Source of the DNA: an uncultured Bacteroidales bacterium
Lineage (GTDB): Bacteria > Bacteroidota > Bacteroidia > Bacteroidales > Muribaculaceae
DNA length: 46,540 bases
Reading direction: 5' to 3'
Assembly (NCBI GenBank): GCA_902776955.1
Contig: CACYSG010000031.1
Location: forward strand, 1-46,540
Numbering within the stretch: the stretch's first letter is position 1; every line of letters starts with the position of its first letter. The notes under the pieces are model-generated. The model ran no database searches, was not told the origin of the DNA, and saw only the letters and a list, made by a program, of their open reading frames with translations. Both the position numbers and the translations under genes were made by a program. Positions 4,807-46,540 of the stretch are shown one piece after another.

Positions 4807-6690
4807 TTAACCGTTGGCGAGGATGAACTGGATGAACTCGGTGACATCACTGATGTTGGTAGTGCCATCGCTGTTGTAGTCGGCAGCATCGATATTGATG
4901 CCACTGTCTTGACCGGTCAGCACATACTGGATAAGGAGGGTAACATCACTGATGTTGAGGATTTCGTTGCCGTCGAGGTCACCGGGGATGAAGGTGGGCT
5001 GGGGCTCGTCCTTCTCGCCGAGTTTGCGCTTGTTGGCGTTGGTGACATAGAGGTCGGTCAACGCACCGCTGCGCAGGGGACGGCTGATGAAGGCGACAAC
5101 GCTGAGCTTCTCGGGATTCCAGGTGGTGGGAATGTTAACGACAAACTCGTTCTCATAGGTATCGCCATTGCGCTTGAGGGCAACACCTCTGACGCCGCCG
5201 GGAGCGAAGCGCAGCACATTGTTGTGAACATAGTCGTTGCCACCGCTCGTCTGAGCAGCAACAAGGCCGTCCTCGGTGATATAGACGGTGAGCCTGCTGT
5301 CGGCACCCATCTTCTGGTCAAAGTCGGGAATGAGCTCGCCGTTAACGGTGATGGTAGCCTTGCGGGTAGCCTCGTCATAGGTGCTGTTGATGAATACCGA
5401 GGCATGTGAGGGATCCTCGGAGAATTGATCCAGGAAGCTGCTCAGATAGTTGGCGCCCGCCTGTTGCTGGCTTGCCGAACCACCGAAGTTGATGACGGTG
5501 CAAACCTCGTTGGGGGTTGAGGAGTCGGGACCGGGATAGCGGTCGAAGGAACCCTCGGGATAGCCCGTGCAATGCTGGTAGGTTTCGAGCGAGTCACACT
5601 GGGCGGTCCTGAACGGATCGGTTTCACCCATGTTCTCGTGGATAGCCACCCAAGCAATGTCACCACGCAAGTCGCACAACGCGTTGAGCATTGCGGTGCC
5701 GTTGGGACAGAAGGTGCAATAGACCGAGGTGAACTGCTCTACCAGTCGCATCTGGCGGGCGAAACCGTGGTCAAAGCTCTTGAAGGTGAATGATAATACA
5801 GGCGGATTCTCGATGGCCTCACCATTGACCGATACGGCAGTGAGGGTGAGCGTGTGGTAACCCTCGGCGACGTCGTTCACGGGAATCGTCTTGGTGATGG
5901 AATTGTAGGCGCTGGTGAGTGCATCGGGGTTGGTAAAGGTGCTGACAACGTTGCCGTCGATAGCGACCTCATAGGTGCAGCCGCCGGCAGGTACCTGGCC
6001 GACACCAATGTTGCTGGTCTGGAACGTGAAGGTATAGTTGTCACCGTTCTTTACGCTTTTGGGAGCCGTCAGATTGCGCATCAGGATAACGTAGCTGGGG
6101 AAGTTGTCGTTCTCGACAATGCACTGCAGACTCAGGTTACCGATGTTGCTCAAGCCGTAATTCTGCCAGCGGCCTGCCCTCAGCGTGTAGGACGGATAGA
6201 TGGTGCCCACGTTAACTGCCGAGATGGGTTTGTCGGCCGAGTTTTGCTGATTGTACACGAATCCGATTCTCAGCTGATAGTCGCTGGGCAGGTTGATGAG
6301 ATAGGGCGTGTCGAGTTCGACGATGTTCCAGCCCTCTTCACCCACTTCGCAGGGCCACTCAATCATCTCGCCCAGGTTGCCATTGCCGTCAATGGGGATG
6401 AGAAACACACTGGTGACGGGAGTCGCGATGGACATACCCACCCTGAAGGCAACAATCTTGCTGCCCTGGAAGAAGGCCAGTTCCTCGGGACTGAGGTCGG
6501 TAGCAATGGGTGATCCGCCGGTGAGGTAGGTCTTACCCCAACATCCGCCCAGGGCGATGTCATCGGTGGTGTAATGACCCATGATGAGTTGATTGTCGGC
6601 TAGATCCATACGTGACGGGGCGAGTTTCTGGGCCCCGATGGCCATTGGCAACAGCATCGCTGCCAACAGTAGTAATAATGATTTTTTCAT
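4807..6690 (-). CDS. Secreted Omp28-related protein with thioredoxin-like CxxC and C-terminal dockerin
   Basis: The protein has 627 residues. A signal peptide (MKKSLLLLLAAMLLPMAIGA) is followed by a beta-rich region (~25-300) and an Omp28-like thioredoxin-fold region. That region starts near residue 316 with VEQFTSVYCTFCPNG (Cys325-x-x-Cys328), followed by WVAIHEN and a CTGYPEG-like loop. Residues ~567-627 hold two dockerin-type calcium loops, DLDGNEILNISD and DYNSDGTTNISD, each followed by a hydrophobic helix (VTLLIQYVL, VTEFIQFIL). Omp28-related proteins are surface or outer-membrane proteins of Bacteroidetes. The CxxC pair suggests redox or structural disulfide chemistry outside the cell. 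It is a single-gene unit between two tRNAs. The dockerin implies attachment to a cohesin partner; this is inferred. Confidence 0.87.
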   Translation of the reverse strand: MKKSLLLLLAAMLLPMAIGAQKLAPSRMDLADNQLIMGHYTTDDIALGGCWGKTYLTGGSPIATDLSPEELAFFQGSKIVAFRVGMSIATPVTSVFLIPIDGNGNLGEMIEWPCEVGEEGWNIVELDTPYLINLPSDYQLRIGFVYNQQNSADKPISAVNVGTIYPSYTLRAGRWQNYGLSNIGNLSLQCIVENDNFPSYVILMRNLTAPKSVKNGDNYTFTFQTSNIGVGQVPAGGCTYEVAIDGNVVSTFTNPDALTSAYNSITKTIPVNDVAEGYHTLTLTAVSVNGEAIENPPVLSFTFKSFDHGFARQMRLVEQFTSVYCTFCPNGTAMLNALCDLRGDIAWVAIHENMGETDPFRTAQCDSLETYQHCTGYPEGSFDRYPGPDSSTPNEVCTVINFGGSASQQQAGANYLSSFLDQFSEDPSHASVFINSTYDEATRKATITVNGELIPDFDQKMGADSRLTVYITEDGLVAAQTSGGNDYVHNNVLRFAPGGVRGVALKRNGDTYENEFVVNIPTTWNPEKLSVVAFISRPLRSGALTDLYVTNANKRKLGEKDEPQPTFIPGDLDGNEILNISDVTLLIQYVLTGQDSGINIDAADYNSDGTTNISDVTEFIQFILANG

Positions 6691-6768
6691 AAACTTGATT
6701 GGTTATAAAATGAGTTATTAAAAAGTTGAGAAGTTTACAACCTTTGATAGGTTTTGATTAAACAATCC

Positions 6769-6777
6769 ACAAATGTA
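6769..6777 (-). promoter_or_regulatory. -7 promoter element of the Omp28/dockerin gene
   Basis: TACATTTGT on the minus strand, with a TTG about 21 bases further upstream. It is a near match to the TAnnTTTG box, about 80 bases before the start codon. Confidence 0.5.
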
Positions 6778-6852
6778 GGTATTATTTTTAAGAGATTGCA
6801 ACTATTCTTCCGGGTTTTTTTAGATAAGGTAAAGAAAGCATGATCAAGACTA

Positions 6853-6888
6853 CAAAAAAACAGGGTAACCCATCTCTGGATTACCCTG
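6853..6888 (-). terminator. Terminator of tRNA-Asp
   Basis: On the minus strand, CAGGGTAA and TTACCCTG form an 8-bp stem followed directly by seven T residues (AAAAAAA on the plus strand at 6854-6860), just after the tRNA 3' end. Confidence 0.85.
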
Positions 6889-6897
6889 CTTATTGAG

Positions 6898-6971
6898 CGG
6901 TGTGTACGTGACTCGAACACGCGACCCCCTGCGTGACAGGCAGGTATTCTAACCAACTGAACTAACACACC
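6898..6971 (-). tRNA. tRNA-Asp (anticodon GTC)
   Basis: 74 bases on the minus strand. The acceptor GGTGTGT pairs with ACACACC, with discriminator G as expected for Asp. The anticodon stem CCTGC/GCAGG encloses loop CTGTCAC, giving anticodon GTC. CCA is not encoded. It is the substrate of the AspS encoded at 2672-4453. Confidence 0.97.
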
Positions 6972-6996
6972 TGGTTGCATTTTTGAGAAATGCGGT

Positions 6997-7030
6997 GCAA
7001 AGTTAGTACAAAAGTTTCTAATCTTGCAAA
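6997..7030 (-). promoter_or_regulatory. Promoter of tRNA-Asp
   Basis: On the minus strand, TTTG (7030-7027), a 21-base spacer and TAACTTTGC (7005-6997) lie 25 bases upstream of the tRNA. Confidence 0.7.
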
Positions 7031-7210
7031 TTTTTTGACACTTTTTTGTGAAATCCGTGCATTTTTGTCATTTGGTTCTTGTTTAAATGTATCAACACCA
7101 ACTGATTTTGATTTCGTCGGCATGGTCAGATGACGAATTTGCGAAAATGTCAAAAAAATAGACAATTTATTGTAACTTTTTATACAGTATGCGTTTTTTT
7201 CGAGAAAAAA

Positions 7211-7244
7211 CTTGAAAGTTGCCTTTTTCCCATCCTATCTTTGC
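7211..7244 (+). promoter_or_regulatory. Promoter of the BspA-like gene
   Basis: CTTG at 7211-7214, a 21-base spacer and TATCTTTGC at 7236-7244, leaving a 5' leader of about 60 bases before the ATG at 7310. The remaining stretch 7031-7210 shows only AT-rich sequence. Confidence 0.65.
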
Positions 7245-7309
7245 TCCAGTTATGCATTTCCCTCGATGATAAGCAAATACATTTTTATCAATTAAATCAA
7301 TACACTAAA

Positions 7310-10300
7310 ATGAAGAGGCAACTATTTATTACAATGATGATGGTGATGCTTACAAGCATTGCCATGCATGCCTATGACTTTGAGGTCGATGGCATGTATT
7401 ACAACATCAATGGCGATGAGGTTGCTGTCACCAGTGGAGACAATAAATATACTGGCGACGTGGCAATCCCCGAAACAGTGTCCAACCAAGGCACAACCTA
7501 TACGGTTACCGCTATTGGCGAACAAGCATTCGAGTACTGCCCCGATTTGACAGGTGTCACGATTCCTAACACGGTCATCACCATTGGACTTAGAGCCTTT
7601 ATGAACTGTCATTCATTAGCGAGTGCGCAACTCTCCAACTCGCTTACCACGATTGGCAATCTTGCGTTTTATGACTGCAATTTGACAAGCATTTCCATTC
7701 CCAATTCTGTCACCGAGATTGGAAATAGTGCATTCTACAGCTGCTGTTTGACAAGCATTGACATTCCCGGTTCTGTCACTAAGATTGGAATCAACGCATT
7801 CTATGGCAACGGTATTGAAAGCATTAATATCCCCAGTTCTGTCACGACAATCGGTCGTTGTGCGTTCAGCCGCTGTCCCAGATTGACTCAAATTGTGGTT
7901 GATGCTGGCAATCCGGTGTATGATTCCCGTGATAACTGTAATGCCATCATCGAAACGTCCACCAATAAGCTGATCACAGGATGCTGTAACACGATTATTC
8001 CTGATGGAGTCGTCACCATAGGCCAGGAAGCTTTCTCTTACAGTAACAATTTGACCACAATCAACATGCCTAACTCGGTTGCCTCAATTGAACAAGAAGC
8101 TTTTTATGAGTGTAGGGCCCTCAGGAATCTCACGATTGGCAATTCGGTAACTTCCATTGGTCAGTATGCATTCGTTGGTTGCCAAGCACTGATCGACTTG
8201 GTTATCCCCGATGCGGTCACAACCATCGGTTCAAATGCGTTTTATGGATGCTCGGCACTCAAGAGTGTCACCATCGGTAATTCGGTCACATTTATGGGTG
8301 AAAAACTATTCGGTAATTGTAATGCCCTGGAAACGATAAACTTTAATGCTGTCTCATGCCCCGATTTCAGCTCTACTGTGGCCGCCCGTCCGTTCAATGG
8401 TTTGAATATAAAAACAATCAATATCGGTAACAGCGTACAGAGGGTTCCCGGTCGTTTCGCACAGGGTTTGACTTCATTGACAAGATTGACTATTGGCAGT
8501 TCTGTCGCTGAATTCGGTGAATATGCGTTCTATGACTGCGATGCGTTATCTCAATTATCTGTATCCGACGACAATCCTTTATTTGATACCCGAGATAACT
8601 GTAATGCGTTGATTGAAACAGCTACCAACACGCTGGTTCTCGGCTTGAACAACTCAACCATCCCCAATTCAGTTACTGCCATCGGAACAGGGGCATTTCA
8701 GAGCCGTAAAGGAATCACCGAGATCTCCATCCCCGCTTCGGTAATCACTATCGGTGACAATGCATTCTATTACTGTACTGGCCTGACAGGTATCACGATT
8801 CCCAATTCGGTCACGACCATTGGCACAAATACGTTTTATGGCTGTACGGCACTGACTGATGTCACGATTCCCAATTCGGTAACGACTCTTGGCGCCAGTG
8901 CGTTCAACGGCTGTATAAGTCTGTCAAATACCACGATTCCCAGTTCGGTCACGGCCATTGGCAACGATGCTTTTGCCAATTGCAAAAGCTTAACAGATAT
9001 GACGATTCCGAATTCAGTCTCTGCAATAAGCAGTGGAATGTTTTATAATTGCACTAATCTGACGAGTGTAACCATCCCTAATACGGTCACCTCAATCGGT
9101 GCCAGAGCCTTCAGCAGTTGCTCTGGTCTAACGGACATCATGATCCCCAGCGCTGTTACAACCATAGGTAAAAATGCTTTTTATAAATGCATTGGTTTGA
9201 CAAGCATTACCATCCCCGGTTCGGTCACTGCAATCGGTGACTATGCTTTCCAGTACTGTACTGGTCTGACCGACGTGGTTTTCCTCAATTCGCCTGCAAC
9301 AATTGGCCAGAAAGTATTTAACGGATGCAGCAATCTGGAAAACGTTGATCTGGGCAATAGAGTTAAAGATGTCGGCACTTCAGCATTCGAGGCATGTACC
9401 GGTTTGAAGACCATAACCATTCCTAACTCTGTCCAAGAGGTCAATTCAAGAGCGTTTTACGGCTGCAGCGGTTTGACCACTGTATATATCGGGTCAGGTG
9501 TTACATCTATCGGGAGCAAAGCTTTTCAGGAGTGCACCGCTCTGGATACTCTCAATTACAATGCTGCCAATTGTTCATACTATAATTTTGGATATATGCC
9601 AGATAATCCTTTTGCTAATCTGAATATCTCGACAGTGAATATTGGAAACAGTGTAAGAGTTTTACCCAAGCACTTTGCCTACAATTTTTCTAGGTTGACA
9701 AGTGTGGTTATCCCTAACTCTGTCACTACAATTGACGACGCTGCTTTTGCTAATTGCACTAACTTGGCAAATGTGGACCTTGGCGCTGGAGTCGAAACAA
9801 TCGGCGAGTTAGCTTTCCGAGGCTGCGCTATGAAACACTTAACTATTCCTAACAGTGTCAAGAAGATTCAAGACGAGGCATTCGATGGTTGTAGCAGTAT
9901 GACGTGTGTTGATATCGGCACTGGGGTCACATTTATCGGTGATAGGGCTTTTCTGAATTGTAACGCCCTTGATACGCTCAATTATAATGCTGTCTCTTGT
10001 ACTTTCTTTCACACAACGACACAGCAATATCATCCCTTCTATAATTTAACGATTTCGAATGTTAACATAGGGAACGGTGTACAGAAGATACCTGATTATT
10101 TCATGTACGGTTTTACTCGATTGACCAGTATCACGATCCCTGAGTCTGTCACTAGAATCGGCGAGAAAGCCTTCTATAGCTGCACTGGATTGACCAGCGT
10201 GACCATCCCCGAAGCTGTCACTGTAATCGGTGACCAGGCGTTCAAGGAGTGCACTGCTCTGGATACGTTATATTATAATGCTGTATCCTGTGCTGATTTT

Positions 10301-11092
10301 AATACGACAACGCCGTTTTATGCGATGCTGACACCTTTTCCTTATGGCATTTCAACCATCACTATTGGCGATGCGGTCGAGAAGATCCCGGCTTCTTTCG
10401 CTCATGGCATAACGGGTTTGACCGAGTTGACCTTTGGCAATTCAGTAACGTCTATCGGAGGCGCTGCATTCTATGAATGCACGGGTCTGACAGGAAAACT
10501 GACCATTCCTCACCTCGTCAAAACGATCGGATCATCGGCATTCTGGAAATGCTCCGGACTTACCGAGGTCGTCATCAGTGACTCGGTTAACAGCATCGGT
10601 TCAGGCGCATTCGGCTATTGTTCAGAACTGTTGACCTTAACGTTACCTTCATCTGTCACATTCATCGGCGATTGTGCATTTGAGTACTGCGGCAAGTTGA
10701 AGGAGGTATATTGCTATGTTCCTGACCCGTCCCAGATAACCATAGGCGTCTCCAGCGATAATAATTATTATGGCATGTTCTTACAGAGCCATACTTATGA
10801 CAATACGCTTTATGTGCCCCAGGGTGCGGGTGAGGCCTATCGCGCAGACAGCAAGTGGAACAATCCTTTTGATAACATCGTCGAGATGGGTGATGGATCC
10901 GATATGCCGGGCGATGTGGACGGCAACGGCGAGCTCACTATCAGTGATATCTCAATGTTGATCAATTGCCTGATTACGGAGAATACTGACGGCATTAACC
11001 TGTCGAATGCCGACTTGAACGGTGACGGCGAGTTGAATGTCAGCGACATTACCATTCTGGTCAATTATGTGCTCACCGGCAACGAGGAATGA
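7310..11092 (+). CDS. Large secreted BspA-like LRR_5 protein with C-terminal dockerin
   Basis: The protein has 1260 residues from the ATG at 7310, where a signal peptide starts (MKRQLFITMMMVMLTSIAMHA). The open frame extends 60 codons upstream, but that part is AT-rich and contains the promoter. About residues 60-1170 are LRR_5/BspA-type repeats of ~23 residues (consensus TIPNSVTTIGxxAFxxCxxL). They are interrupted several times by longer blocks of the form ALDTLNYNAxxC...INIGNSV. The last ~60 residues contain two dockerin-type loops, DVDGNGELTISD and DLNGDGELNVSD, each followed by a hydrophobic helix. BspA relatives bind host or matrix proteins and mediate adhesion; that role is inferred here. 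It has no T9SS-like tail after the dockerin, unlike the LRR proteins at 34-38 kb. It has its own promoter and terminator. Confidence 0.92.
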   Translation: MKRQLFITMMMVMLTSIAMHAYDFEVDGMYYNINGDEVAVTSGDNKYTGDVAIPETVSNQGTTYTVTAIGEQAFEYCPDLTGVTIPNTVITIGLRAFMNCHSLASAQLSNSLTTIGNLAFYDCNLTSISIPNSVTEIGNSAFYSCCLTSIDIPGSVTKIGINAFYGNGIESINIPSSVTTIGRCAFSRCPRLTQIVVDAGNPVYDSRDNCNAIIETSTNKLITGCCNTIIPDGVVTIGQEAFSYSNNLTTINMPNSVASIEQEAFYECRALRNLTIGNSVTSIGQYAFVGCQALIDLVIPDAVTTIGSNAFYGCSALKSVTIGNSVTFMGEKLFGNCNALETINFNAVSCPDFSSTVAARPFNGLNIKTINIGNSVQRVPGRFAQGLTSLTRLTIGSSVAEFGEYAFYDCDALSQLSVSDDNPLFDTRDNCNALIETATNTLVLGLNNSTIPNSVTAIGTGAFQSRKGITEISIPASVITIGDNAFYYCTGLTGITIPNSVTTIGTNTFYGCTALTDVTIPNSVTTLGASAFNGCISLSNTTIPSSVTAIGNDAFANCKSLTDMTIPNSVSAISSGMFYNCTNLTSVTIPNTVTSIGARAFSSCSGLTDIMIPSAVTTIGKNAFYKCIGLTSITIPGSVTAIGDYAFQYCTGLTDVVFLNSPATIGQKVFNGCSNLENVDLGNRVKDVGTSAFEACTGLKTITIPNSVQEVNSRAFYGCSGLTTVYIGSGVTSIGSKAFQECTALDTLNYNAANCSYYNFGYMPDNPFANLNISTVNIGNSVRVLPKHFAYNFSRLTSVVIPNSVTTIDDAAFANCTNLANVDLGAGVETIGELAFRGCAMKHLTIPNSVKKIQDEAFDGCSSMTCVDIGTGVTFIGDRAFLNCNALDTLNYNAVSCTFFHTTTQQYHPFYNLTISNVNIGNGVQKIPDYFMYGFTRLTSITIPESVTRIGEKAFYSCTGLTSVTIPEAVTVIGDQAFKECTALDTLYYNAVSCADFNTTTPFYAMLTPFPYGISTITIGDAVEKIPASFAHGITGLTELTFGNSVTSIGGAAFYECTGLTGKLTIPHLVKTIGSSAFWKCSGLTEVVISDSVNSIGSGAFGYCSELLTLTLPSSVTFIGDCAFEYCGKLKEVYCYVPDPSQITIGVSSDNNYYGMFLQSHTYDNTLYVPQGAGEAYRADSKWNNPFDNIVEMGDGSDMPGDVDGNGELTISDISMLINCLITENTDGINLSNADLNGDGELNVSDITILVNYVLTGNEE
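7545..9270 (+). repeat. Coding repeats of about 69 bp within the BspA-like gene
   Basis: Units of ~69 bp encode the 23-residue LRR_5 repeat. Neighbours between about 8690 and 9250 are especially alike (recurring ACGATTCCCAATTCGGT and CATTGGC...GCTTT). Further, more degenerate units continue to about 10700. The similarity would allow unit gain or loss by recombination. Confidence 0.8.
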
Positions 11093-16677: not shown

Positions 16678-18504
16678 TTATCTGTTGTAAATCAGTTTGA
16701 TAATCGTGTTAATATCGCCGATGCTGATTTCGTCATCGCCATTGCAGTCGGCCAGCACGGGCGGGCATGGCATGCTCCCGTTGCCCAGCATGATGTCGAT
16801 GATGAGGTTGATATCGGCGATGTTGATCTCGCTGTCGCTGTTCACGTCTCCTGCCATCAGGTCCTTTTCTCTCTTCTCCATGCTCAGGCTGTAGGTATGG
16901 GGGCGCTTGATGGACTTGAGGTAGATGTTGCCAAAGGTGTCAATCACCCTGACCGTGATGGGCTCGCGGGATGTCGTGGCTTGAGCCTTGAACATGTGGG
17001 TGTTGGCCGTAGTGGCATAGTAGGACGTGTAGTAGCCGACGGCACTGTAACGGGCTATGTCATAGGCCAGCGTGTGGAACGGGTCCTCGGTATAGGTGCG
17101 CTGGCATGCCAGCATGGTGTTCCCTTCACACACACTCACGCGCCATTTGGGGTCGTAGCAGAACACGTTGAACATCACTACGTTGCTGTCGAGTTGGGCA
17201 TAGTCCACACGTGAGGGATAATCCTTGAGAATGGCACGTATGGCGCTGTTGGTCTGGTAGTAGTTCCTCACGGTGTTCATGTCGTAGAGCCGCATCTGGC
17301 TATCGCCCGCATGGATGGATTGGTAGGTCCATTGCGGCGCTGTGCCGTCAACCGTCCAGCGCAGGTAACCGGCAGGGCTGCCGTCCTGGTTGATGTGGTG
17401 GCCGCTCGCGGCGCCGCTGTTCCACAGGTTGCCGCTGACGGTGGCGATGTTGTGCTCGGTGATGTGGGAGTAATAGGAGGGACGGGCGACATAGTTGCCG
17501 TGGGTGTGTCCGCTCATGATGTGGACGTTGTCAAACTTGTTGAGCATGCTGGCTAGGGCCGAGGTGTTGTCCAGGCGGGAATAGAAGCCGAACGATGATG
17601 AGATGCCCCAGGCAGGGATGTGAAGGCACACGACCACGGGCGTGTGGGGGCTGACGAGAGCGAGGTCCTTGGCGAGCCACGTCATCTGCTCGGCGGTGAT
17701 TCGGCCTTGGTAGTTGCGGCTGCCGGCGACGCCCTCGGGATTGCTGTCGCCCGGATTGGCGTCGTTCAGATAGACGATATCGTCAAGCACCACATAGTGG
17801 ACCTTGCCCAGATTGAAGCTGTAGTATGTCGGACAGACGATTTCGCGCCAGCGCTGCGAGGCTCGCTCGTCGGTGTCGTTGCCGGCGGGAATGCTCGGGT
17901 CGTGATCGTGGTTGCCGATAACGGCCCACAACGCCATCGGATAGTTGTAATGCTGCATGTCGTCCATGAAGTCGGTCAGGTCATACTCGTTCTGATACCA
18001 GAAGACGTCCCACGTGAGGTCTCCCAGCAGGACCGAGTAGATGGGGGTCCCGTCGGCGCGCGCAACCTCGTCATTGAGGCTGGCCAAAAAACCTTTCTTG
18101 AAAAAGGCGCGGTCACTGTTGCGGCGTGCCAGATGCGTGTCGGCACCGAAGATGACGATGTGCCTGTCGTTGTCGACGCGTTGCAGCGTGAAGTCGTGCG
18201 TCTCGTGCACGGTGACGTCAGTGCTCGTGAGCGGAGCCCAGAACTGAGGGTTGAAACCGTCGGCAAGCACGGGCTCGTAGCCGCCGGGCAGGGTGTAAAA
18301 GACATAGCCGTTCGCCTTATCGCTGGTCATGGTATAGTAGCCGTGGGCATCGGTGAGCACCACGATGTTGCCGTCGCTCACGGCGACATCGGCCACGCCG
18401 TGCCCGTCACAAGTGATGCGGCCGCTCAAGTTTTGAGCCGCAAGACCTGCCATGCCGGCGAGCGCCAGCATCCAAGTCAGCGATATGAGCCTGGGCGTTG
18501 TCAT
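16678..18504 (-). CDS. Secreted calcineurin-like phosphoesterase with C-terminal dockerin
   Basis: The protein has 608 residues: a signal peptide (~1-23), an N-terminal carboxypeptidase-regulatory-like beta domain (~26-110), a metallophosphoesterase domain (~114-345) and a C-terminal beta domain (~360-540). Metal ligands visible are GADTHL (Asp122, His124), LLGDLTWD, IGNHDHD (197-203) and SGHTHGN; the first motif has Thr between Asp and His. Residues ~548-608 carry two dockerin loops, DVNSDSEINIAD and DCNGDDEISIGD. It probably hydrolyses a phosphate ester at the cell surface; the substrate is unknown. Its start codon overlaps the DUF4491 stop by 4 bases (ATGA), and trmD follows 9 bases later, so a secreted dockerin protein sits inside a housekeeping operon. 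Confidence 0.92.
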   Translation of the reverse strand: MTTPRLISLTWMLALAGMAGLAAQNLSGRITCDGHGVADVAVSDGNIVVLTDAHGYYTMTSDKANGYVFYTLPGGYEPVLADGFNPQFWAPLTSTDVTVHETHDFTLQRVDNDRHIVIFGADTHLARRNSDRAFFKKGFLASLNDEVARADGTPIYSVLLGDLTWDVFWYQNEYDLTDFMDDMQHYNYPMALWAVIGNHDHDPSIPAGNDTDERASQRWREIVCPTYYSFNLGKVHYVVLDDIVYLNDANPGDSNPEGVAGSRNYQGRITAEQMTWLAKDLALVSPHTPVVVCLHIPAWGISSSFGFYSRLDNTSALASMLNKFDNVHIMSGHTHGNYVARPSYYSHITEHNIATVSGNLWNSGAASGHHINQDGSPAGYLRWTVDGTAPQWTYQSIHAGDSQMRLYDMNTVRNYYQTNSAIRAILKDYPSRVDYAQLDSNVVMFNVFCYDPKWRVSVCEGNTMLACQRTYTEDPFHTLAYDIARYSAVGYYTSYYATTANTHMFKAQATTSREPITVRVIDTFGNIYLKSIKRPHTYSLSMEKREKDLMAGDVNSDSEINIADINLIIDIMLGNGSMPCPPVLADCNGDDEISIGDINTIIKLIYNR

Positions 18505-28551: not shown

Positions 28552-31500
28552 ATGAACAGGTTACTTACTTTTTTATTGACTGCTCTGCTGGCATTCTCGG
28601 TCGGCTGGGCAGAAACTGAGACGGTGACAACAACCATTAGCTCAGCCAACGCTACTGGCACGACTTTGACGTGGAGTAATTCAAATTTGACTTTTTCTTT
28701 GACGCAAAAGCCATCAAGTACCAGTTACTCAGTTGAAACCAGTAATTATGCTCGTGGCTTATCAACTGGCGCGAAGACGGGTACCCATGTGCTCACTTCT
28801 AATCAGTCTTTTAGCAATGTTACAAAGGTTGAAGTTGTTGCATCTACCAATGGCAATAATAATACCTTATCGGTAAAAGTTGGAGGCACAACAATTGGCA
28901 CTACTCAAACCATAACAAGTGGTACAGGTAGTGCAAATGCGACTTATACTTTTGACGCATCCAGTGCTGCTAGTGGAAAAATTGCTATTACCATCGATGA
29001 TGAAAATAAAACTGTTTGGGTCAAAACAATTACAGTGACTTATTCTACTGGGGGCACAACCGAGCCCTGTGCTACCCCGGTGTTCAATCCTGACGGTGGT
29101 ACTTATACCGATGCTGCAACGGTAACCATTACCAGTGCTACCAATGGTGCCACCATCTACTATACCACCGACGGCACCACCCCAACGACAAATAGCAGCA
29201 GTATCAGCAATGGCGGCTCTGTCGTCCTTTACCAGAGCTGCACGCTCAAGGCCATGGCCGTGTTGAGTGGCATGGAAAACAGTGCTGTTGCAACCAGTCA
29301 AGCCTATACCATCAACTCGGGTGGTACTCCCAGCTCCAGCACGATTTACCGCAGGGTTTCCAGTATAAATGATCTTGTTCCTAGCCGGCAGTGCATCATC
29401 GTCTATGAGAACGGCGATAATTCGGCCGCCATGGGTGCCTTCAACGGCAGTACTCCTACCACAGTCAGCAATTTCGCTGCAGTGACAGGCCTCTCCGTCA
29501 CCGACCACCGCATTGATATCGCCGATGCAGACGGCGTGCTCATCCTAACCTTGGCTGGCACACAGAACGCCTGGACGCTTTCCAATAACGGATATATTAC
29601 TGGTTCGAACAACACAACGACTTTTACATTTCCTACTAGCCCGGTTGCCGGGAGTGCGTCGTATTGGACCATCTCGGCGGATGAAGGTACTATTCAGAAT
29701 AACTTGAGCACGACCCGTTATATCCGGTATTATACAAGCAACCCTTCTTTCAGACACTATACTACTGACTATGGTGAATGGGCCTACCTCTATGTTCAGG
29801 ACACCAATCCGACATTAACGGTAAGCGACGACAACCTGACCTTGCCCGACATCCCCTACGATGCTGCTGCGGGCGCCTCAACGTCGAGCACCTTTACCGT
29901 GACCGGATCCAACCTCGAGGATGACGTGACGATTACCTATACGGGCGCAGACTTCACGGTTACTCCTACAAGCATCTCGCCTGTTGACGGCTCGGTCGAT
30001 GAGACCATCACCGTGACCTATAACGGCACGAGCACCGACCCTGTCACTTGCGTGATTACCGTAACCTGCGGCAACCTGACCCGCACCGTCACCGTGACGG
30101 CCAAGAAACAGACCCCTCCGCCCGCTGTAATCACCGTTGCTCCCGCCACGCTGAACATCAACGACAGCGGTGAGAACAACACGCTGACCATCACCGGCCA
30201 GTATGTGAACGGCAACATCAATGCCAGCCTGGCCACCACCACCGACTGGACGCTGTCTCCCGAGACGTTCGGCAACACGGGTGGCACTGCCACTGTGGCC
30301 TATACCGGCCGCGCCCTGAGCGCTAGCAATACCGTGACGGCCCAGGCCGCCAACGACAACACCGTGTCGGCCCAGGCAACCGTCAACTACCTGGCCGACC
30401 TGTATATCGTTACCGACAACGGCCAGAACACCAACAACGGCTATCCCAGCAACAACTGGGACTTCGCCCACGGCGTTCACATGACCTATGAAAACGGTGT
30501 CTATACCGGAGAATTCCAGGCCAATCAAGCCACGACGTTTATTGTGTTTACCAGGAAGTTGGTTGAAACCGAACCTTGGGGCACCCGTCTGGCATTCGGC
30601 CCCAGCAGCAATGGTGACTGGTGGTTACCCGCCAGTGGTAACGGCTCGGGTAATATCGACCTGAACGATAGTGATCCCATCAGGATCCAGTATCCGGGTC
30701 TCTACCACATCAGCATTAATGCCAACGCTGGTACTTTCACCATCACCAGCACGCTCCCGACTGTAGCGACCCCGACCTTCTCGCCGGCTCCCGGTACCTA
30801 CACCGAGGCTCAGACCGTGACTATCTCCTGCGCTACCGATGGCGCCACCATCAGCTACAGCACCGACGGCGGCAACACCTGGACCGTGGGCAACACGGTC
30901 ACCGTGAGCGAGACCACGACCATCATCGCCAAGGCCACCAAGGAGGGCATGAATGACAGCGAACCTGCCAGCGCCACCTACACCATCCACATCCCGGGTG
31001 AGGGCGACTTTGTGCTGGTAACCAGCATCGGCGACCTTGCCGAGGGCGACGAGATCATCATTGTGAACAGCGGAGGGGACGGCGATGCTAAGGCCATGGC
31101 CGGTCAGAGGGATAACAACCGCGCTGCTACCGATGTCGAGGTGTTAGGCCAGACTGTAGCCGACGACTACCCCGACATGCAGATTATCCACCTCGAGGGA
31201 GATAATACCGATGGCTGGTACTTCAACGTGGGTGACGTTAGCGATGCCTACCTGTATGCAGCAAGCAACACCAGCAACCATCTGAAGACACAAGCTGAGA
31301 AGAATGATAATGCCAAAGCAAGCATCGATATCACCACGGCTGGCGTAGCAACCATCCAGTTCCAGGGCAGCTATAGCCATAACTGGTTGCGTTATAACAG
31401 TGGTAGTAACATTTTCTCATGCTATGCCAGTGGCCAGCAGCCTGTTTACATCTACAAGCGTGAGGCTGCCAAGGTTTCTTCTCCCGTGATCACGCCTGCT

Positions 31501-34325: not shown

Positions 34326-36413
34326 ATGCGCAAATTGTTTTTCCTGCTGCTCCTGGCAGCAGTCATTACACCTGCCAGCAAAGCCATCACCGTTGAGAAT
34401 ACGGCTGGACAGCTGGCCCAACTGGTGAGCGATACCCAGATTACAGAATTGACCGTTACCGGCACTATGGATGCCCGTGACTTCCTGTTCATCAGTGAAG
34501 AGCTCGCCGAACTCACCTCAATAGACCTGACCCAGGTGACCATCGTCCCGTTTGACAACGGCAAGACGCTGTATGGAACGGTCACGGCCTATTATGCCAA
34601 CGAGATTCCCCGTACGGCATTTTTTGGTAAGAAACTCACTTCGGTGGCGCTTCCCACCAATATCGAGATTATCGGTTACGCTGCCTTTGCCGGCTGTTAC
34701 CAGCTGCGTAGCGTGACGATTCCCGAGAGCGTGACCGACATCGATGACTATGCCTTTGCCGGCTGTGCCTTGACGAGCATCGACATCCCCGCCAACGTGT
34801 TGGGTATGGGCGTGGGCGTGTTCTCGCGCTGTGAGTCGCTCGAGAGTGCGGTCATCGATTCCCACATCATCGGCTCATTCGCCTTCTTGGGCGACACCAA
34901 CCTGAGCGACGTGACGCTCGGTCCTAGCGTCGTTAGTATCGATGAGGGCGCATTCAATGGTTGCACCGCCTTGAAGACGGTTGCCATCGACTACCGCTCG
35001 CGTCTGGGCCAAATCGGTGATGAAGCCTTCATCAATTCGGGCCTGGAAAACATCGACATCAGGTCGCTGACCGTGAGTCGCATCGGTGCTTGGGCTTTTG
35101 CCCAGACCCAGTTGACGGACATCGCCCTGCCGGGATCAGCATCTAACCTGGGTATGGGTATTCTGGCCCATAATCCGTTGCTCACCAAGGTATATCTTCC
35201 CGACGTGCGCACTTCTGGCGGTAGGCGCCTGCATGGTGCTCCCGCCCTGCGCCGCACCATCGAGCGTCTGCCGGACTATGCCTTTGCAGGCGACGAAATC
35301 CTCAACCCCGGCACCATGCTTCTCAATGGCACCAAGACCATCGGCAATTATGCGTTCTATAACGTTTGCCAGGATATCGACACCATGTTCCTTCCCTCGA
35401 GCATCACCTATCTGGGCGACTATGCGATGGCAGGTATGACGGGCATGAAGGTCCTCCAGACCAATGCCAGCGAGGTTCCCGCGCTGGGTATCGAAGTGTG
35501 GGCCGGTGTGGATCAGGCCTCTATTCCCCTGATTGCTCCCAGCGAGGAGAGCACCGAGCTCTACAAGGTTGCCGACCAGTGGATGAACTTCTTCTACGGC
35601 GAGCCTGAGCCTCAGTACATCCTGGGTGACGTGAACCGCGACGGTTATGTGAACATCACCGACGTGACGTTGCTCATCAGCTACGTCCTCAACGGCTCGG
35701 GCGACATCGACCTGCTTGCCGCTAACATTAACGGTGACGAAGATGTGAACATCACCGACGTGACGTTGCTCATCAGCAGGGTACTCTCCAGCACCAGCAA
35801 GATGTCGATCACCGACCAGCGCGACCAGGTTCTCGCTTGGAGTAACGCCACTGGCGACGGGCTGGAGATCGAGCCCATCACCCTGCGTGCCGGCGAGACC
35901 CGCACCATCGACGTGACTCTTGACAACAACGAGCGCATCTATATGGCTATCCAGTGTGACGTGGTGCTTCCCCAGGGAGTAACCCTTACCGCCGTTAACG
36001 GTATCGACCGTGGCGCCGACCACAGCTTCTACAGCATCAAGAACGAGGTCGAGCAGAATGCCTATACGCTGATGGGTGTTTCGATGGAGATGGCCAACTT
36101 CGCCGGTAACGATGGCAAGGTCATGAGGCTTACCGTCACCGCCGATGACGACTTTGACGCACAGGATGCCCAGATCGAGTTTGCCAATGTAAGCCTCGTG
36201 TCCACCAAGCACAACATCTACCTGGCCGAGAATGCTTTGGCAAGAATCAATGACGCCACGGGCATCGAGCGCGTGACCGCCGACAAGGAGATCGCCAGCG
36301 TGCGCTACATCAACGTGGCAGGCCAGGAGAGCGAACTCCCGTTCAACGGCATCAACATCGTGGTGACCACCTATACCGACGGCTCCACATTGACGAACAA
36401 GATTATTAAATGA
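34326..36413 (+). CDS. LRR - dockerin - cohesin-like - T9SS-tail surface protein, paralogue 1
   Basis: The protein has 695 residues with a signal peptide (MRKLFFLLLLAAVITPASKA). LRR_5/BspA repeats (~25-410; CYQLRSVTIPESVTDIDDYA) lead to a dockerin pair at ~433-495 (DVNRDGYVNITD, NINGDEDVNITD, each with a VTLLIS helix). Then comes a cohesin-like beta-sandwich (~510-630: ITLRAGETRTIDVTLDNNE, then AIQCDVVLPQGVTL, KVMRLTVTADDDF and IEFANVSLVS). The last ~45 residues are a T9SS type A-like tail (ASVRYINVAGQESELPFNGI). Having both a dockerin and a cohesin-like module on one chain would allow homo-assembly or display of dockerin partners at the cell surface. The cohesin call is from pattern recognition and is less sure than the rest. 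Confidence 0.87.
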   Translation: MRKLFFLLLLAAVITPASKAITVENTAGQLAQLVSDTQITELTVTGTMDARDFLFISEELAELTSIDLTQVTIVPFDNGKTLYGTVTAYYANEIPRTAFFGKKLTSVALPTNIEIIGYAAFAGCYQLRSVTIPESVTDIDDYAFAGCALTSIDIPANVLGMGVGVFSRCESLESAVIDSHIIGSFAFLGDTNLSDVTLGPSVVSIDEGAFNGCTALKTVAIDYRSRLGQIGDEAFINSGLENIDIRSLTVSRIGAWAFAQTQLTDIALPGSASNLGMGILAHNPLLTKVYLPDVRTSGGRRLHGAPALRRTIERLPDYAFAGDEILNPGTMLLNGTKTIGNYAFYNVCQDIDTMFLPSSITYLGDYAMAGMTGMKVLQTNASEVPALGIEVWAGVDQASIPLIAPSEESTELYKVADQWMNFFYGEPEPQYILGDVNRDGYVNITDVTLLISYVLNGSGDIDLLAANINGDEDVNITDVTLLISRVLSSTSKMSITDQRDQVLAWSNATGDGLEIEPITLRAGETRTIDVTLDNNERIYMAIQCDVVLPQGVTLTAVNGIDRGADHSFYSIKNEVEQNAYTLMGVSMEMANFAGNDGKVMRLTVTADDDFDAQDAQIEFANVSLVSTKHNIYLAENALARINDATGIERVTADKEIASVRYINVAGQESELPFNGINIVVTTYTDGSTLTNKIIK

Positions 36414-36586: not shown

Positions 36587-38563
36587 ATGAAAAACCAGAT
36601 CATCATATGTCTGATGGCGATGGCAGCGGTGTTCCTGCATGCCGGGGCTATCGATGTGGCCACCACTGCGGGTGAATTATCCGGTAAGGTGACCGATTAC
36701 TCCATCACCGACCTGACGGTGACGGGAACCATGGATTTTAATGACTTTTACTTCATTGCCGACAACCTCAAGCAGCTCAGGTCGCTCGATTTGACCGATG
36801 TGAGGGTGGTCGGCAGCAGCAGCGTGAGCCGACGCTATTGGCAGGACGGATTCAAGGACGACGAGCTGCCCGTGGGCGCGTTGGGAGGCATGAACCTAAC
36901 CACCGTGAAGCTGCCGTCGTCACTGCAGAGCATCGGGCAGGCCGCCCTGGCGGGCTGCATCGCCCTGGAAGAGGTGACCTTGCCCGCCGAACTGGACAGC
37001 ATCGGTGAATATGCCTTTGCGGGCTGCACCTCGCTCCAGGGGGTGACCCTGCCGGCCAGCGTCAGGGTGGTGGCGACAGGCGCCTTTGTGCACTGCACGT
37101 CGCTCACACGCTTTGACGTGGAGCCGTCGAGCCGCTTGGAAAGGGTGGACGCTACGGCACTGATGGATTGTCCCGCGTTGACGGCTGTCGAGCTGGGGCC
37201 CTCGGTGCAGTACCTCGGTGAGCGGGCGCTGTTGGGAGCAAGTGTACAGCATATCGACCTGACTGCCAATGAGCGCCTTGCCGAAATCGGTGATTGGGCG
37301 CTGGCACAGTCGCCGGTCAACGAGATTAGTTTGCCCTCCAGTGTGACCCGTGTGGGCGATGGCGCATTCTTTGGCGACGACCAGCTCACGGCGGTACGTT
37401 TAGGCGGCAGCGTTGCCGAACTCAATGACTACTTGATGGCCGGAACGGGGCTGAATGGAGAGCTCGACTTGACGGGCGTGAGCCGGATTGGCAATTATAC
37501 GTTCTATAACGTCTCGGAGCTGCCCGAAGTGACCCTGCCCGCGACGGTGACCTGGCTGGGCTCGTTTGCCATGGCCGGCATGACGGGCATGACGGCGCTG
37601 ACGAGCGAAGCGGTCGATGTCCCCGCCCTGGGCGACAGCGTGTGGGCTGGAGTCAACCAGTCCCTCATCCCCCTGACCGTCCCCGACGAGGCCCGTGAAC
37701 ACTATCAGGAGGCTGAACAATGGAAGGAGTTCTACTTCTATGTCGAGCCGAAGTGGCTGCGTGGCGATGTCAATAATGACGGCGAGGTGAATATCGCCGA
37801 TGTCAACACGTTGATAGACATTATTCTGGGCGGACGCTTCGATGAAGGCACCATGCGCCGCGCCGATGTCAACGAGGATGGCGAAATCGGCATTGCCGAC
37901 GTCAACACGGTTATCGATATCATTCTGAACCCCGGTGCTTATGCCGCGCCTGCGGTGGACACCGGCGACACGATGCACCTCGACGACGTGACGCTCAGGC
38001 CGGGCGAGGAGCGGACGCTGACGGTCACCCTTGACCACGCCGAGGCCTATAGCGCGCTGCAGTGCGACATCATCCTGCCTGCAGGCTTGACACTGGTGAA
38101 TACCGCCGCCCTGGGACAGACCACCGAGACCCGTGTCATGGGCGACCAATGGGTGCGCACGTTGACCTACTCGATGGACAAGCGCCGCTTTAGCGACGAG
38201 GATGGTGTGGTGCTCACGCTAACCGTCCGCGCCGACGACAATCTGCCTGCGTCAGGGCAGTTGACCATCAGCAACATCGTCCTTGCCGATGAGCACAACG
38301 TCGGATGGCACGCCGGTGACTGCGTGGCCATGGTGAACAGCACGACGGGCATCGAGGATGTGACCGCCGCCGGCGATCGCGTATGGGTCGAGGGAAACAC
38401 CCTGTGCATCGATTCACGCCTTGTAGCGACGGCACGCGTGTCGGCCATCAACGGCATGACGCGTGACCTCTCGCTCGACGCGGGTGTGAACCGCTACAGG
38501 ATGCAGCAGGGCTTCTATGTCGTTGTCCTCAATGGCAGGAGCTATAAAGTGGCAATTAGATAA
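36587..38563 (+). CDS. LRR - dockerin - cohesin-like - C-terminal-tail surface protein, paralogue 2
   Basis: The protein has 658 residues from the ATG at 36587, where the signal peptide starts ([20 protein letters not shown]); the open frame upstream overlaps promoter and terminator. LRR_5 repeats (~20-375) are followed by a dockerin pair at ~392-452 ([24 protein letters not shown], each with a VNTxIDIIL helix). A cohesin-like domain follows (~465-590: [44 protein letters not shown]). The final ~55 residues form a sorting-tail-like segment ending [22 protein letters not shown] in two pieces. It has the same architecture as the neighbouring 34326 gene but is clearly diverged. trmB starts 22 bases downstream, so this surface protein seems to head the trmB-mrp-xse unit. 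Confidence 0.87.
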
Positions 38564-43882: not shown

Positions 43883-43891
43883 AAAAATTAT

Positions 43892-43900: not shown

Positions 43901-43924
43901 ACCCGCAACGATGGAGCAAGTCAC

Positions 43925-44006: not shown

Positions 44007-44010
44007 CCGG

Positions 44011-44050: not shown

Positions 44051-44060
44051 ATTGTAAAAC

Positions 44061-44159
44061 ATTGTGAGATTTCTATAGGATTTGAAGAAATAAATTGTGA
44101 GATTTCTACAGAATTTCCGTAAAAACATTGTGAGATTTGCCCAAAATGGTTGTTGCGGT
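44061..44159. repeat. 33-bp period tandem repeats downstream of the DUF234 ATPase gene
   Basis: ATTGTGAGATTT starts at 44061, 44094 and 44127, exactly 33 bases apart; the rest of each unit diverges (TTCTATAGG, TTCTACAGA). The stretch 44160-44268 holds only a hairpin, TGGAATAT/ATATTCCA (44185-44220), which may end the minus-strand gene. Confidence 0.9.
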
Positions 44160-44268
44160 TGGTGAATTAATCAGATGTTTATAGTGGAATATATTTGTGT
44201 ACTGTTACAAAAATATTCCATATCTTGAACAACTCATTTCGGCCGAGGGGGCGGGATGATTAAGGTCA

Positions 44269-45666: not shown

Positions 45667-45683
45667 AGCGTCTATTGTTGATT

Positions 45684-45860
45684 TAGCCGCAAAGATAACA
45701 AAAATTTCATTTTTAGCCAAGTTTTTATCACATAATTAGCTGAAATCAAAAATTTGTACAATATTTAGCCAAATATCTTATGATAGTTGGCTTAAATTAA
45801 AGAATTTGTTCACATCTAGCTGATTTTATTACAATAATCGGCTGAAATCAAAGAAATGTA
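45684..45860. repeat. 51-bp period repeats upstream of the DUF234 ATPase gene
   Basis: TAGCY-like cores occur at 45684, 45714, 45737, 45766, 45788, 45817 and 45839, mostly alternating 22 and 29 bases apart, i.e. a 51-bp unit. The full unit reads TTAGCTGAAATCAAAAATTT with a second TTAGCC half-site. They cover the promoter region of the ATPase. Confidence 0.8.
45689..45697 (-). promoter_or_regulatory. -7 promoter element of the DUF234 ATPase gene
   Basis: TATCTTTGC-type box on the minus strand, 23 bases before the start codon and inside the first repeat unit. Confidence 0.6.
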
Positions 45861-45964
45861 GATTTTAGGGCGGTATGTCATTAATTTTTCTGCTTTCCGC
45901 CCGAAAGTCTGCATTTAGATTGGAGTTAGATAGTTACATTCATCTTGATAATAATCACATTTTC

Positions 45965-45990
45965 TGGGGGGCGTGCGCTCCCCCTTTTTT
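45965..45990 (+). terminator. Orphan terminator-like hairpin
   Basis: GGGGG (45966-45971) and CCCCC enclose a GCGTGCGCT loop region, followed by six T residues. No plus-strand gene ends here, so it may be a leftover of a lost gene. The rest of 45861-46097 shows no gene. Confidence 0.55.
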
Positions 45991-46097
45991 CGCCGTCGGA
46001 TGCCTTTAGACGCCCTTAAACATCTCATCGGCTTGCTGGAAAATGCTGTCAATCAGGCGTTGAGGGGCTTTTAAAGTGTTTTGGGAGGTGCGAACTT

Positions 46098-46113
46098 GAG
46101 TCCTATCAGGCGC
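46098..46113. repeat. Putative second attachment site (tRNA-Leu 3' fragment)
   Basis: An exact 16-base copy of the tRNA-Leu 3' end, without the rest of a tRNA. It marks the right edge of the mini-island. Confidence 0.8.
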
Positions 46114-46118
46114 GCACA

Positions 46119-46152
46119 GAAAACAAAAACCCGCTGAAATTTCAGCGGGTTC
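46119..46152 (-). terminator. Terminator of the last dockerin gene
   Basis: On the minus strand, AACCCGCTGAAA pairs with TTTCAGCGGGTT, followed by TTTGTTTT. It lies about 80 bases after the stop codon at 46234. Confidence 0.85.
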
Positions 46153-46233
46153 TTCACTGGATTTTATAAAGAAGGTTTTTATGGAGCTTGCGCTCACACT
46201 TCAACTGCATTTCCTCCTTGAAAATATCAAAGA

Positions 46234-46540
46234 TTAGTTCTCGGGCCAGCTATCAGTAAGCAGGAAATTAATGAGTAATGTCAAATCAGAGATGCTCACT
46301 TCTTGGTTGCCATCAGTATCGGCACAGATGTTGCAAATCTGCGTCTCGGGATTGAGCATATAGCCAATCAAGGTGGTTACGTCATTGATGTTCACAACGT
46401 TGTCATGATTAACGTCGCCCAGTTGATAGCCATGTTCGCCACCTTCACCATGCAGGACAACGGTCTTGGCCTTGCTCCAAGGGCTCCAGGTGTCGTCGGT
46501 GTAATGGGCCTTCACGCGGAAGAAGAAGGTGCCGCCGGCT
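46234..46540 (-). CDS. C-terminal part of a secreted dockerin protein (cut by the window edge)
   Basis: 102 residues are visible and the frame stays open to the window end. The first ~40 residues (GGTFFFRVKAHYTDDTWSPW) look like the last strand pair of a fibronectin-type domain. The last ~60 form a dockerin pair: DVNHDNVVNIND and DTDGNQEVSISD, each with a hydrophobic helix (VTTLIGYML, LTLLINFLL). There is no sorting tail after the dockerin. The catalytic or binding part lies beyond the window, so its role cannot be read here. It is followed by a strong terminator and lies just outside the tRNA-bounded mini-island. Confidence 0.88.
   Translation of the reverse strand, partial: AGGTFFFRVKAHYTDDTWSPWSKAKTVVLHGEGGEHGYQLGDVNHDNVVNINDVTTLIGYMLNPETQICNICADTDGNQEVSISDLTLLINFLLTDSWPEN

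Follow-up and report, generated by a model that had tools for sequence, protein, structure and literature searches.

The genome examined here probably encodes a cohesin-dockerin surface-assembly system, in which a dockerin does the job of a secretion tail, and belongs to a genus of gut Bacteroidota that is very likely Sodaliphilus (Muribaculaceae). More than 100 secreted proteins would terminate in a type I-like dockerin. The sockets for them would be a multi-cohesin scaffoldin, small cohesin-dockerin (Coh-Doc) adaptors and proteins with a tail like that of the type IX secretion system (T9SS) and one or two cohesins, including a pair of LRR proteins in the window (the whole stretch of DNA that was analysed, 46,540 nucleotides).

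Dockerin-bearing proteins in the window

Six dockerin-bearing proteins had been proposed in the first-pass annotation, and all six exceeded the curated cut-off of the Pfam model Dockerin_1 (PF00404, 22.9 bits), with scores of 27.6-46.2 bits. These proteins, and the modules and tails of the LRR pair, are as follows.

4807..6690, minus strand: Omp28-family protein with a C-terminal dockerin at 4819-4986 (Omp28 74.1 bits, Dockerin_1 37.1 bits)
7310..11092, plus strand: BspA-type LRR protein with a C-terminal dockerin at 10907-11074 (LRR_5 814 bits, Dockerin_1 46.2 bits)
16678..18504, minus strand: calcineurin-like phosphoesterase with a C-terminal dockerin at 16690-16854 (MetallophosC 103.4, MetallophosN 67, Metallophos 33.5 and Dockerin_1 27.6 bits)
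34326..36413, plus strand: LRR-dockerin-cohesin-tail protein, pair member 1, dockerin at 35622-35786 (LRR_5; Dockerin_1 40.5 bits)
35853..36257, plus strand: predicted cohesin-fold module of LRR protein 1 (AlphaFold2, Foldseek and profile match to the genome cohesins)
36258..36410, plus strand: T9SS-like C-terminal tail of LRR protein 1 (by resemblance)
36587..38563, plus strand: LRR-dockerin-cohesin-tail protein, pair member 2, dockerin at 37763-37924 (LRR_5; Dockerin_1 35.5 bits)
37964..38341, plus strand: putative cohesin-family module of LRR protein 2 (E 2.3e-41 to a profile that includes its own sequence; alignment with the folded module, this one having entered the modelling solely as an aligned sequence)
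38342..38560, plus strand: T9SS-like C-terminal tail of LRR protein 2 (by resemblance)
46234..46540, minus strand: partial protein (C-terminus, truncated at the window end), dockerin at 46258-46422 (Dockerin_1 41.8 bits)

The accessory domains were also those that had been claimed, namely Omp28, the MetallophosN, Metallophos and MetallophosC domains, and BspA-type LRR_5 in three of the six (all by Pfam). An alternative in-frame ATG lies upstream of the LRR protein at 7310..11092, at position 7130. Four dockerins had been placed at the extreme C-terminus, and in these the stop follows the dockerin match by only 3 (4807), 5 (7310), 3 (16678) and 7 (46234) residues; the LRR proteins at 34326 and 36587 run on for 208 and 212 residues respectively. 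The two-loop pattern Dx[N/D]xD...D parses in 5/6 of the window dockerins, the exception being that of the first LRR protein, whose second loop begins with N. The partial protein from 46234 is likely to be the C-terminal end of a C10 peptidase, as judged from a C10-like ORF of 162 residues upstream on the same contig (C31, ~47,529-48,014). The bases just beyond the window end are unread (X).

Dockerins across the genome

The six proteins do lie within the window, but a local dockerin gene cluster was rejected as dockerins are dispersed genome-wide, the search giving 154 matches (E <= 1) and all 150 listed ones lying above the cut-off. In the same search 9/14 control genomes had a match at E <= 1 and 2/14 had one above the cut-off. 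As a control for chance, dockerin and cohesin profiles built from the genome gave no hits among 2,350 ORF sequences that had been reversed or shuffled.

Judged by their sequences, the dockerins are type I-like with two near-symmetric putative calcium loops and helices after them. A strict two-loop pattern, which itself fixes positions 1 and 12, parsed 129/150, and positions 3 and 5 are mostly N and D. The recognition positions 10/11 are equal in both repeats of 55 of the 129 parsed dockerins (shuffle mean 20.8, maximum 34). Among the 143 dockerin ORFs having a 3' end, the dockerin lies within 15 residues of the C-terminus in 126, and a T9SS-like tail, called by eye, follows it in six. Cohesins are present in 5/6 of these tailed ORFs vs 3/137 of the untailed, so that the division first drawn in the window, between tailed proteins bearing cohesins and tail-less cargo, extends genome-wide with the tails called in this way. 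A signal-peptide rule was satisfied by 128/142 and a lipobox rule by only 8/128 of the predicted signals.

Cohesin-fold modules and scaffoldins

The cohesin-like domain suspected after the dockerin in the LRR pair was checked by structure prediction. The AlphaFold2 model of the first window module (35847-36263) had a pLDDT of 95.7 and a pTM of 0.88, and cohesin modules were present in 50/50 of the hits listed by Foldseek against the PDB (query TM 0.56-0.74). As modelled, this post-dockerin domain has a cohesin fold, and so it did not turn out to be an unrelated beta-sandwich. It was the fold comparison that settled this identity, sequence alone having missed it: the Pfam cohesin model PF00963 matched neither window module at E <= 1, and searches of PDB sequences with two profiles of post-dockerin modules (A2 and A5) gave no significant cohesin (best for A5, E 0.24), with a weak cohesin match from the mixed profile A1 (best E 0.0013). 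A model of dockerin, cohesin and tail together (AlphaFold2, pLDDT 93.0, pTM 0.78) has a helix separating dockerin and cohesin, and its Foldseek hits contain cohesin, save rank 36, which is a pilin. Intramolecular docking, of the window dockerin onto its own cohesin, is a possibility in such a model.

The two LRR proteins had also been credited with a T9SS-like tail. The T9SS tail model TIGR04183 had no match to the window tails at E <= 1, nor, for the first protein in a search with the aligned set, at 0.1; it matched 12/18 aligned orthologs and paralogs of the pair (best E 1.7e-5). The window tails are assigned as T9SS-like from these relatives and by resemblance. The gene pair recurs in many of 76 named loci, and dockerin classes across the pair stood at 14/18.

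A search of the genome for more cohesin-like proteins found further ones. There were 15 strong matches by profile, 12 of them to sequences that had gone into the profile, and five modules outside the window exceeded the PF00963 cut-off. They include a scaffoldin outside the window, with five cohesins and a terminal dockerin split over two overlapping frames, and it has no tail. In two other genomes (G060 and G135) the scaffoldin has six cohesins and a terminal dockerin in one frame and adjoins an LRR-dockerin-cohesin-tail gene. Small Coh-Doc adaptors were also found, and other genera have small proteins in which a single cohesin is combined with a T9SS-like tail, one of them adjoining a dockerin protein (L180). 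The second scaffoldin ORF was scanned as part of an alignment (A6), and the 25 families shown for that alignment include no cellulose-binding module. The SprA translocon gene is present (TIGR04189, 2629 bits, positions 2-2318 of 2319).

The tailed LRR proteins had been put forward as scaffolds. Their role as main scaffolds is uncertain, as either protein carries a single cohesin together with a dockerin of its own, and the scaffoldin with several cohesins is tail-less. The split of the scaffoldin across two frames counts against the surface-assembly reading, as does the number of sockets; with ~15 strong cohesins for ~150 dockerins, equal amounts would leave part of the cargo without a socket at any one time.

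Dockerins and secretion tails in the genus and its sister genera

Among C10 peptidases picked by their C10 domain, a terminal dockerin is present in 16/16 from other members of the genus (those among the matches listed, of 43 C10 matches in five genomes; one dockerin was called by eye) and in 0/44 from sister genera (28 loci and 20 stretches hand-picked from the same list, with one antisense ORF removed, 45 to 44). TIGR04183 matches 27/44 of the latter. Six ORFs from sister genera and two from the genus lack a 3' end and are not in these counts. The C10 peptidases of the genome itself (19/20 of those with a 3' end) were kept out of the evidence because the stretches had been chosen by dockerin.

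Endonuclease I shows this exchange of tail for dockerin only in part, as 8/11 genus ORFs have a T9SS-like tail and no dockerin. Endonuclease I proteins bearing both were found on contig C62 of the genome itself, in G109 and in G001, which belongs to another genus, and could be intermediates if many tails were traded for dockerins. TIGR04183 counts are modestly lower in the genus (median 12.5 vs 18 in sister genera, p 0.046). The idea that dockerins have replaced T9SS tails across the board was rejected, given the tailed, dockerin-free endonuclease I proteins and this modest fall. Both observations also weigh against the surface-assembly reading.

In the surface-assembly reading, tailed proteins would pass the outer membrane via the type IX system and become fixed at the surface, where their cohesins would hold dockerin cargo, directly or via the scaffoldin and adaptors; the dockerin would thereby replace the individual secretion tail used in sister genera. 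What the analysis shows is the domains, the fold of one window cohesin, the protein architectures, their recurrence across the genus and the difference in C10 tags between genera; we infer the binding of dockerins by cohesins, the position of the complex on the outer face and the route of the untailed cargo across the outer membrane. It is possible, if somewhat unlikely, that dockerin cargo, once folded in the periplasm, docks onto the cohesins of T9SS-tailed proteins and crosses SprA together with them. One secretion tail would then export several passengers, and many tails would have been traded for a plug-in tag.

Pairing of cohesins and dockerins away from the cell surface, inside the periplasm or on vesicles that the cell sheds, with the cargo leaving by vesicles, by lysis or never, appears improbable. 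Such pairing would agree with the 126/143 dockerin ORFs that finish at the dockerin, and therefore have no T9SS tail, with the few signals that fit the lipobox rule and with a scaffoldin that is itself tail-less; against it, several cohesin proteins have T9SS-like tails, and the tails of the sister-genus C10 enzymes argue for a job outside the cell.

Co-occurrence of dockerins and cohesins in the family

Outside the genus, dockerins and cohesins tend to occur in the same genomes of the family (p 3.5e-7, uncorrected for kinship); 24 genomes of the family carry a dockerin without any cohesin match. One genome of another genus (G001, 85% complete, 230 contigs) has 31 dockerins and no cohesin by A1 or PF00963, and dockerins can therefore be numerous without a recognised partner. 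These genomes, and the invisibility of the cohesin similarity of the window modules to sequence searches, weigh against the surface-assembly reading and would fit dockerins whose main role is that of calcium-stabilised caps or spacers at the C-terminus, multiplied by duplication and partnerless, with the cohesin-fold domains as ordinary beta-sandwich spacers before the tail. We consider this quite improbable, as it is opposed by that co-occurrence, by the cohesins in all 50 listed Foldseek hits, by the agreement of recognition positions between dockerin repeats and by the tandem cohesins with a terminal dockerin, which is the layout of a scaffoldin.

Cargo of the dockerins

The dockerin cargo includes LRR proteins, peptidases (C10, M6 and S8), CotH proteins and amylases. 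LRR_5 (35) and Peptidase_C10 (15) are the commonest Pfam families over 147 dockerin ORFs; five cargo proteins have alpha-amylase matches, and GH53, GHL10 and GH123 occur on a few. The cargo had been described as other than cellulases, in agreement with which none of the families listed for the 147 dockerin ORFs is a cellulase family, the listing covering all but up to five families. Home-made regular expressions to sort the cargo were dropped, as 120/148 were left unsorted.

A true cellulosome acting on the cellulose of plant cell walls, which passages of an ISME J 2024 paper propose for Sodaliphilus, would accommodate the dockerins, cohesins and scaffoldin, the rumen setting of relatives and the few GH53, GHL10 and GH123 proteins, but is most improbable with no cellulase among the listed families and with LRR_5 and Peptidase_C10 the commonest.

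Comparison with known systems

The system resembles clostridial and ruminococcal cellulosomes in its two-loop dockerins on many secreted enzymes, its multi-cohesin scaffoldin, its Coh-Doc adaptors and its cohesin fold, and differs in the Gram-negative host, in the proposed anchoring by T9SS-like tails and in the lack of cellulases among the listed cargo. Those cellulosomes are anchored by SLH or sortase. With gingipain-type T9SS cargo of the Bacteroidota, to which Ruminococcus bromii and Limousia do not belong, it shares an encoded SprA and a putative C-terminal sorting domain, which some of its cohesin proteins carry; unlike in such cargo, the tail is absent from most dockerin proteins here.

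The dockerin number here falls in the range of the largest cellulosomes; for B. cellulosolvens, the largest, passages of one paper (PMC12484212) give 166 components that bear dockerins. As described in parts of the respective papers, the R. bromii amylosome (PMC9112005) and the Limousia mucinolysome (PMC12997984) are cohesin-dockerin assemblies with non-cellulose cargo, as is the case here with five alpha-amylase matches; those parts describe no T9SS link for either. Three papers describe dockerins in MAGs of rumen Bacteroidetes (PMC10872696, PMC7480376, PMC6071333), with 63 to 107 in what is probably the same genus (PMC10872696), and their role in Bacteroidetes PULs was termed undefined (PMC7480376). 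High Sodaliphilus dockerin counts are already published, and passages of the ISME J 2024 paper interpret them as cellulosomal. In the passages concerned, the three MAG reports give counts and a cellulosome reading, without anchoring by cohesins and T9SS. Engineered Gram-negative display, with a cohesin on the outer surface and dockerin cargo attached (excerpts of PMC9705933 and PMC12484212), is man-made, whereas the system here is apparently natural.

If the surface-assembly reading is true, cellulosome-style assembly extends past Gram-positive fibre degraders, and a rumen Bacteroidota genus runs a large share of its secretome on cohesin-dockerin pairing coupled to type IX secretion. It would raise the question of how enzymes without the T9SS tail of their sister-genus relatives exit the cell, and would offer a display system of natural origin, built on cohesin and dockerin, for Gram-negative cells. 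The high dockerin counts of Sodaliphilus would then point to surface proteolysis, adhesion and the use of starch instead of the digestion of cellulose.

Dockerin proteins of the window and its genome

The first-pass annotation counted six dockerin proteins in 46 kb, and all six match Pfam Dockerin_1 above the cut-off. In four of them the stop codon lies 3 to 7 residues past the dockerin, and the two leucine-rich-repeat (LRR) proteins continue for 208 and 212 residues beyond it. The genome to which the window (contig C31) belongs (3.23 Mb, 123 contigs, 89.7% complete) gave 154 dockerin matches at E <= 1, and all 150 matches listed exceed the cut-off; the window's six represent a set found across the genome. 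When control genomes were searched in the same way, 9/14 had a match at E <= 1 and 2/14 had one over the cut-off. As a chance control, the home-built profiles were run on 2,350 ORF sequences that had been reversed or shuffled, and gave no hits.

The anatomy of these proteins was determined from the stretches around the 150 listed dockerins, which include 143 ORFs with a 3' end. The dockerin is at most 15 residues from the C-terminal end in 126 of the 143. In 8/150 it lies close to the N-terminus and over 100 residues follow it (e.g. at loci L118, L043 and L077); some of these eight proteins have a formylglycine-generating-enzyme-like domain next, as judged by Pfam or by eye. Of the 142 dockerin ORFs that include a 5' end, 128 have a signal peptide predicted by a home-made rule; obvious signals can be seen by eye in several of the other 14. 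A lipobox rule is fitted by 8/128 predicted signals.

A Pfam search covered 147 dockerin ORFs, and 103 were re-run in smaller sets for rarer families. The cargo families detected were LRR_5 (35), Peptidase_C10 (15), CotH (8), FGE (6), Peptidase_M6 (6), alpha-amylase (5), CBM26 (4), Endonuclease_1 (3), Peptidase_S8 (3), GH53 (2) and GHL10 (2), with single occurrences of, for example, Omp28, GH123 and phosphoesterase. The non-cellulase character proposed for the window's cargo extends to the genome, as no cellulase family is among the matches listed for the 147 ORFs (up to five families fall outside this list).

Cohesin modules and their architectures

The Pfam cohesin model PF00963 has seven matches in the genome, five of them above cut-off, and none in the window proteins. 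The window domains can be aligned with the Pfam-positive cohesin modules of their own genome, and hhalign comparison of the post-dockerin modules with the remaining modules gave a probability of 98.9. When a profile of all twelve modules was searched against PDB sequences, the top nine chains were labelled scaffoldin, cohesin or NagJ, the best at E 0.0013; with the post-dockerin modules as sole input, cohesins were not reached in this search. The first window module was modelled with AlphaFold2 (91 rows; pLDDT 95.7, pTM 0.88), and each of the best 50 of its 143 Foldseek hits against the PDB at E <= 0.001 contains a cohesin module (E from 9.4e-9, query TM 0.56-0.74). The domain previously termed cohesin-like is therefore predicted to have a cohesin fold. 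Further cohesins are present in the genome, where the twelve-module profile gave 18 matches, 15 of them at E <= 7e-23 (12 of the 15 being sequences used in building the profile). A weak, partial match on contig C67 (E 4.7e-5) was excluded from the counts.

Cohesin proteins of the window's genome (Coh, cohesin; Doc, dockerin; tail, T9SS-like C-terminal tail)
Contig C12, locus L062:3601-5870: five-cohesin scaffoldin; signal-like start, five cohesins and a dockerin, two overlapping reading frames
Contigs C35 and C19: Coh-Doc-Coh-tail protein, then a small Coh-Doc protein (239 or 237 residues)
Contig C65: Coh-Doc-Coh-tail protein
Window, 34326-36413 (+) and 36587-38563 (+): two adjacent LRR-Doc-Coh-tail genes

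The scaffoldin frames are 317 and 469 residues long from ATG, and the split is either genuine or an assembly error within the repeats. Two other genomes of the genus (G060 and G135) encode a comparable single-frame protein of 919 residues with six cohesins and a terminal dockerin, and this gene adjoins a Doc-Coh-tail gene (576 or 574 residues). In other genera a T9SS-like tail occurs on small single-cohesin proteins, and one such protein is encoded immediately beside a dockerin protein (L180).

The division noted in the window, in which it is the tailed dockerin proteins that carry a cohesin, holds genome-wide. With tails assigned by eye, a cohesin is present in 5/6 dockerin ORFs with a T9SS-like tail after the dockerin versus 3/137 untailed ones, the latter being the scaffoldin and two adaptors (n = 143, Fisher p 7e-7). 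The tailed ORF without a cohesin is an endonuclease I protein on contig C62.

Upstream of the LRR pair, 28552-33762 (+) encodes a protein of 1736 residues with chitobiase-C-terminal-like repeats and neither dockerin nor cohesin. Its tail resembles, by eye, that of the first LRR-Doc-Coh protein, and it is probably T9SS cargo.

Distribution in the genus, family and order

All ten sampled genomes of the genus have at least 40 scored dockerins (93-280 first-look candidates each). Elsewhere in the family, dockerins were detected at E <= 1e-3 in 46/139 genomes, with 31 in one (G001) and 1-9 in the others. Cohesins were found with a mixed profile in 40/149 family genomes, including 10/10 of the genus. 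Outside the genus, 22 family genomes have both modules, 8 cohesin alone, 24 dockerin alone and 85 neither (p 3.5e-7 for co-occurrence, kinship not corrected); no cohesin was detected in G001. Across the order, dockerins were detected at E <= 1e-5 in 79/344 genomes, and a few further families have large sets: G151, G195, G416, G241 and G342 have at least 18 each, so large dockerin sets recur outside the genus.

When named genomes were searched with 18 relatives of the window pair, 180 related loci were returned, of which 76 were kept; these contain 127 ORFs with the Doc-Coh-tail order. Where a record title states the source, it is goat, deer, buffalo, yak or horse gut, and two records are Candidatus Sodaliphilus. 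We infer that the window's genus is Sodaliphilus.

Exchange of T9SS tail and dockerin

C10 peptidases were gathered by their C10 domain from other members of the genus and from sister genera. The genus sample comprises the 16 listed ORFs with a 3' end from five genomes in which 43 C10 matches were counted, and 16/16 end in a dockerin (15 by profile, one by eye), compared with 0/44 in the sister genera (Fisher p 6.7e-15, kinship not corrected), where TIGR04183, the model of T9SS type A tails, matches 27/44 at E <= 0.1. A quickly built tree of 79 C10 domains requires six changes of tag; its well-supported branches force two changes of sister-genera label. C10 peptidases abound in the genus, where matches number 24 in the window's genome and 6-12 in five others, compared with 0-7 in sister genera.

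Endonuclease I has mixed endings. All 11 ORFs of six genus genomes were classified: eight keep a T9SS-like tail, as judged by eye, two are dockerin-ended and a single one combines dockerin and tail. In the window's own genome, three of four were examined: two are dockerin-ended and one has both. In G001 (L373 and L374), five were examined: two have a tail alone, and there is one each with a terminal dockerin, with an inner dockerin and with dockerin plus tail. No dockerin was found in 30 ORFs of other genera, only three of which include the 3' end. The swap is therefore complete among the C10 peptidases sampled, and endonuclease I shows it only in part. The proteins in which a T9SS-like tail follows the dockerin, on C62 (L371) and in G109 (L360), are possible intermediates between direct and dockerin-mediated display.

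Two dockerin classes in paired genes

Dockerins were compared in 18 neighbouring gene pairs from the loci nearest the window (L182-L211). Helix position 14 is T in both repeats of the first gene's dockerin and N in the second's in 14/18 pairs; three pairs combine a mixed first dockerin with an N second one, and one pair is mixed in both. By eye, the window pair follows the T-then-N pattern, and among 28 pairs from more distant loci T then mixed is commonest (16). The pattern in the close pairs suggests two docking specificities.

A putative surface assembly system

The genome encodes SprA, and every sampled genus member has 8-19 TIGR04183 matches at E <= 0.01. In the simplest reading, the T9SS would take the tailed cohesin proteins to the surface, and dockerin proteins would attach to them directly or via the scaffoldin and adaptors. 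The display model proposed from the window gains support in architecture and in the genus comparison, and fold, layout and co-occurrence form the basis for inferring that cohesins bind dockerins. The boldest possibility, which we consider rather unlikely, is that untailed cargo crosses the outer membrane by piggyback on a tailed protein.

In the parts of the literature consulted, 63 to 107 cellulosome dockerins are given for Sodaliphilus members, which are called candidates for cellulose degradation (PMC10872696); two Prevotella MAGs have dockerins, with their role in rumen Bacteroidetes PULs stated as not defined (PMC7480376); and, in tabulated Bacteroidetes bins, several have dockerins and the two bins 129 and 136 have cohesins (PMC6071333). 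The term 'type IX' is absent from the text passages seen of one review (PMC12484212), and titles and abstract openings of the searched literature, most subscription journals lying outside it, contain no description of a cohesin-T9SS system. The system would be a variant of cohesin-dockerin assembly in a Gram-negative bacterium, with non-cellulase cargo and a tie to type IX secretion.
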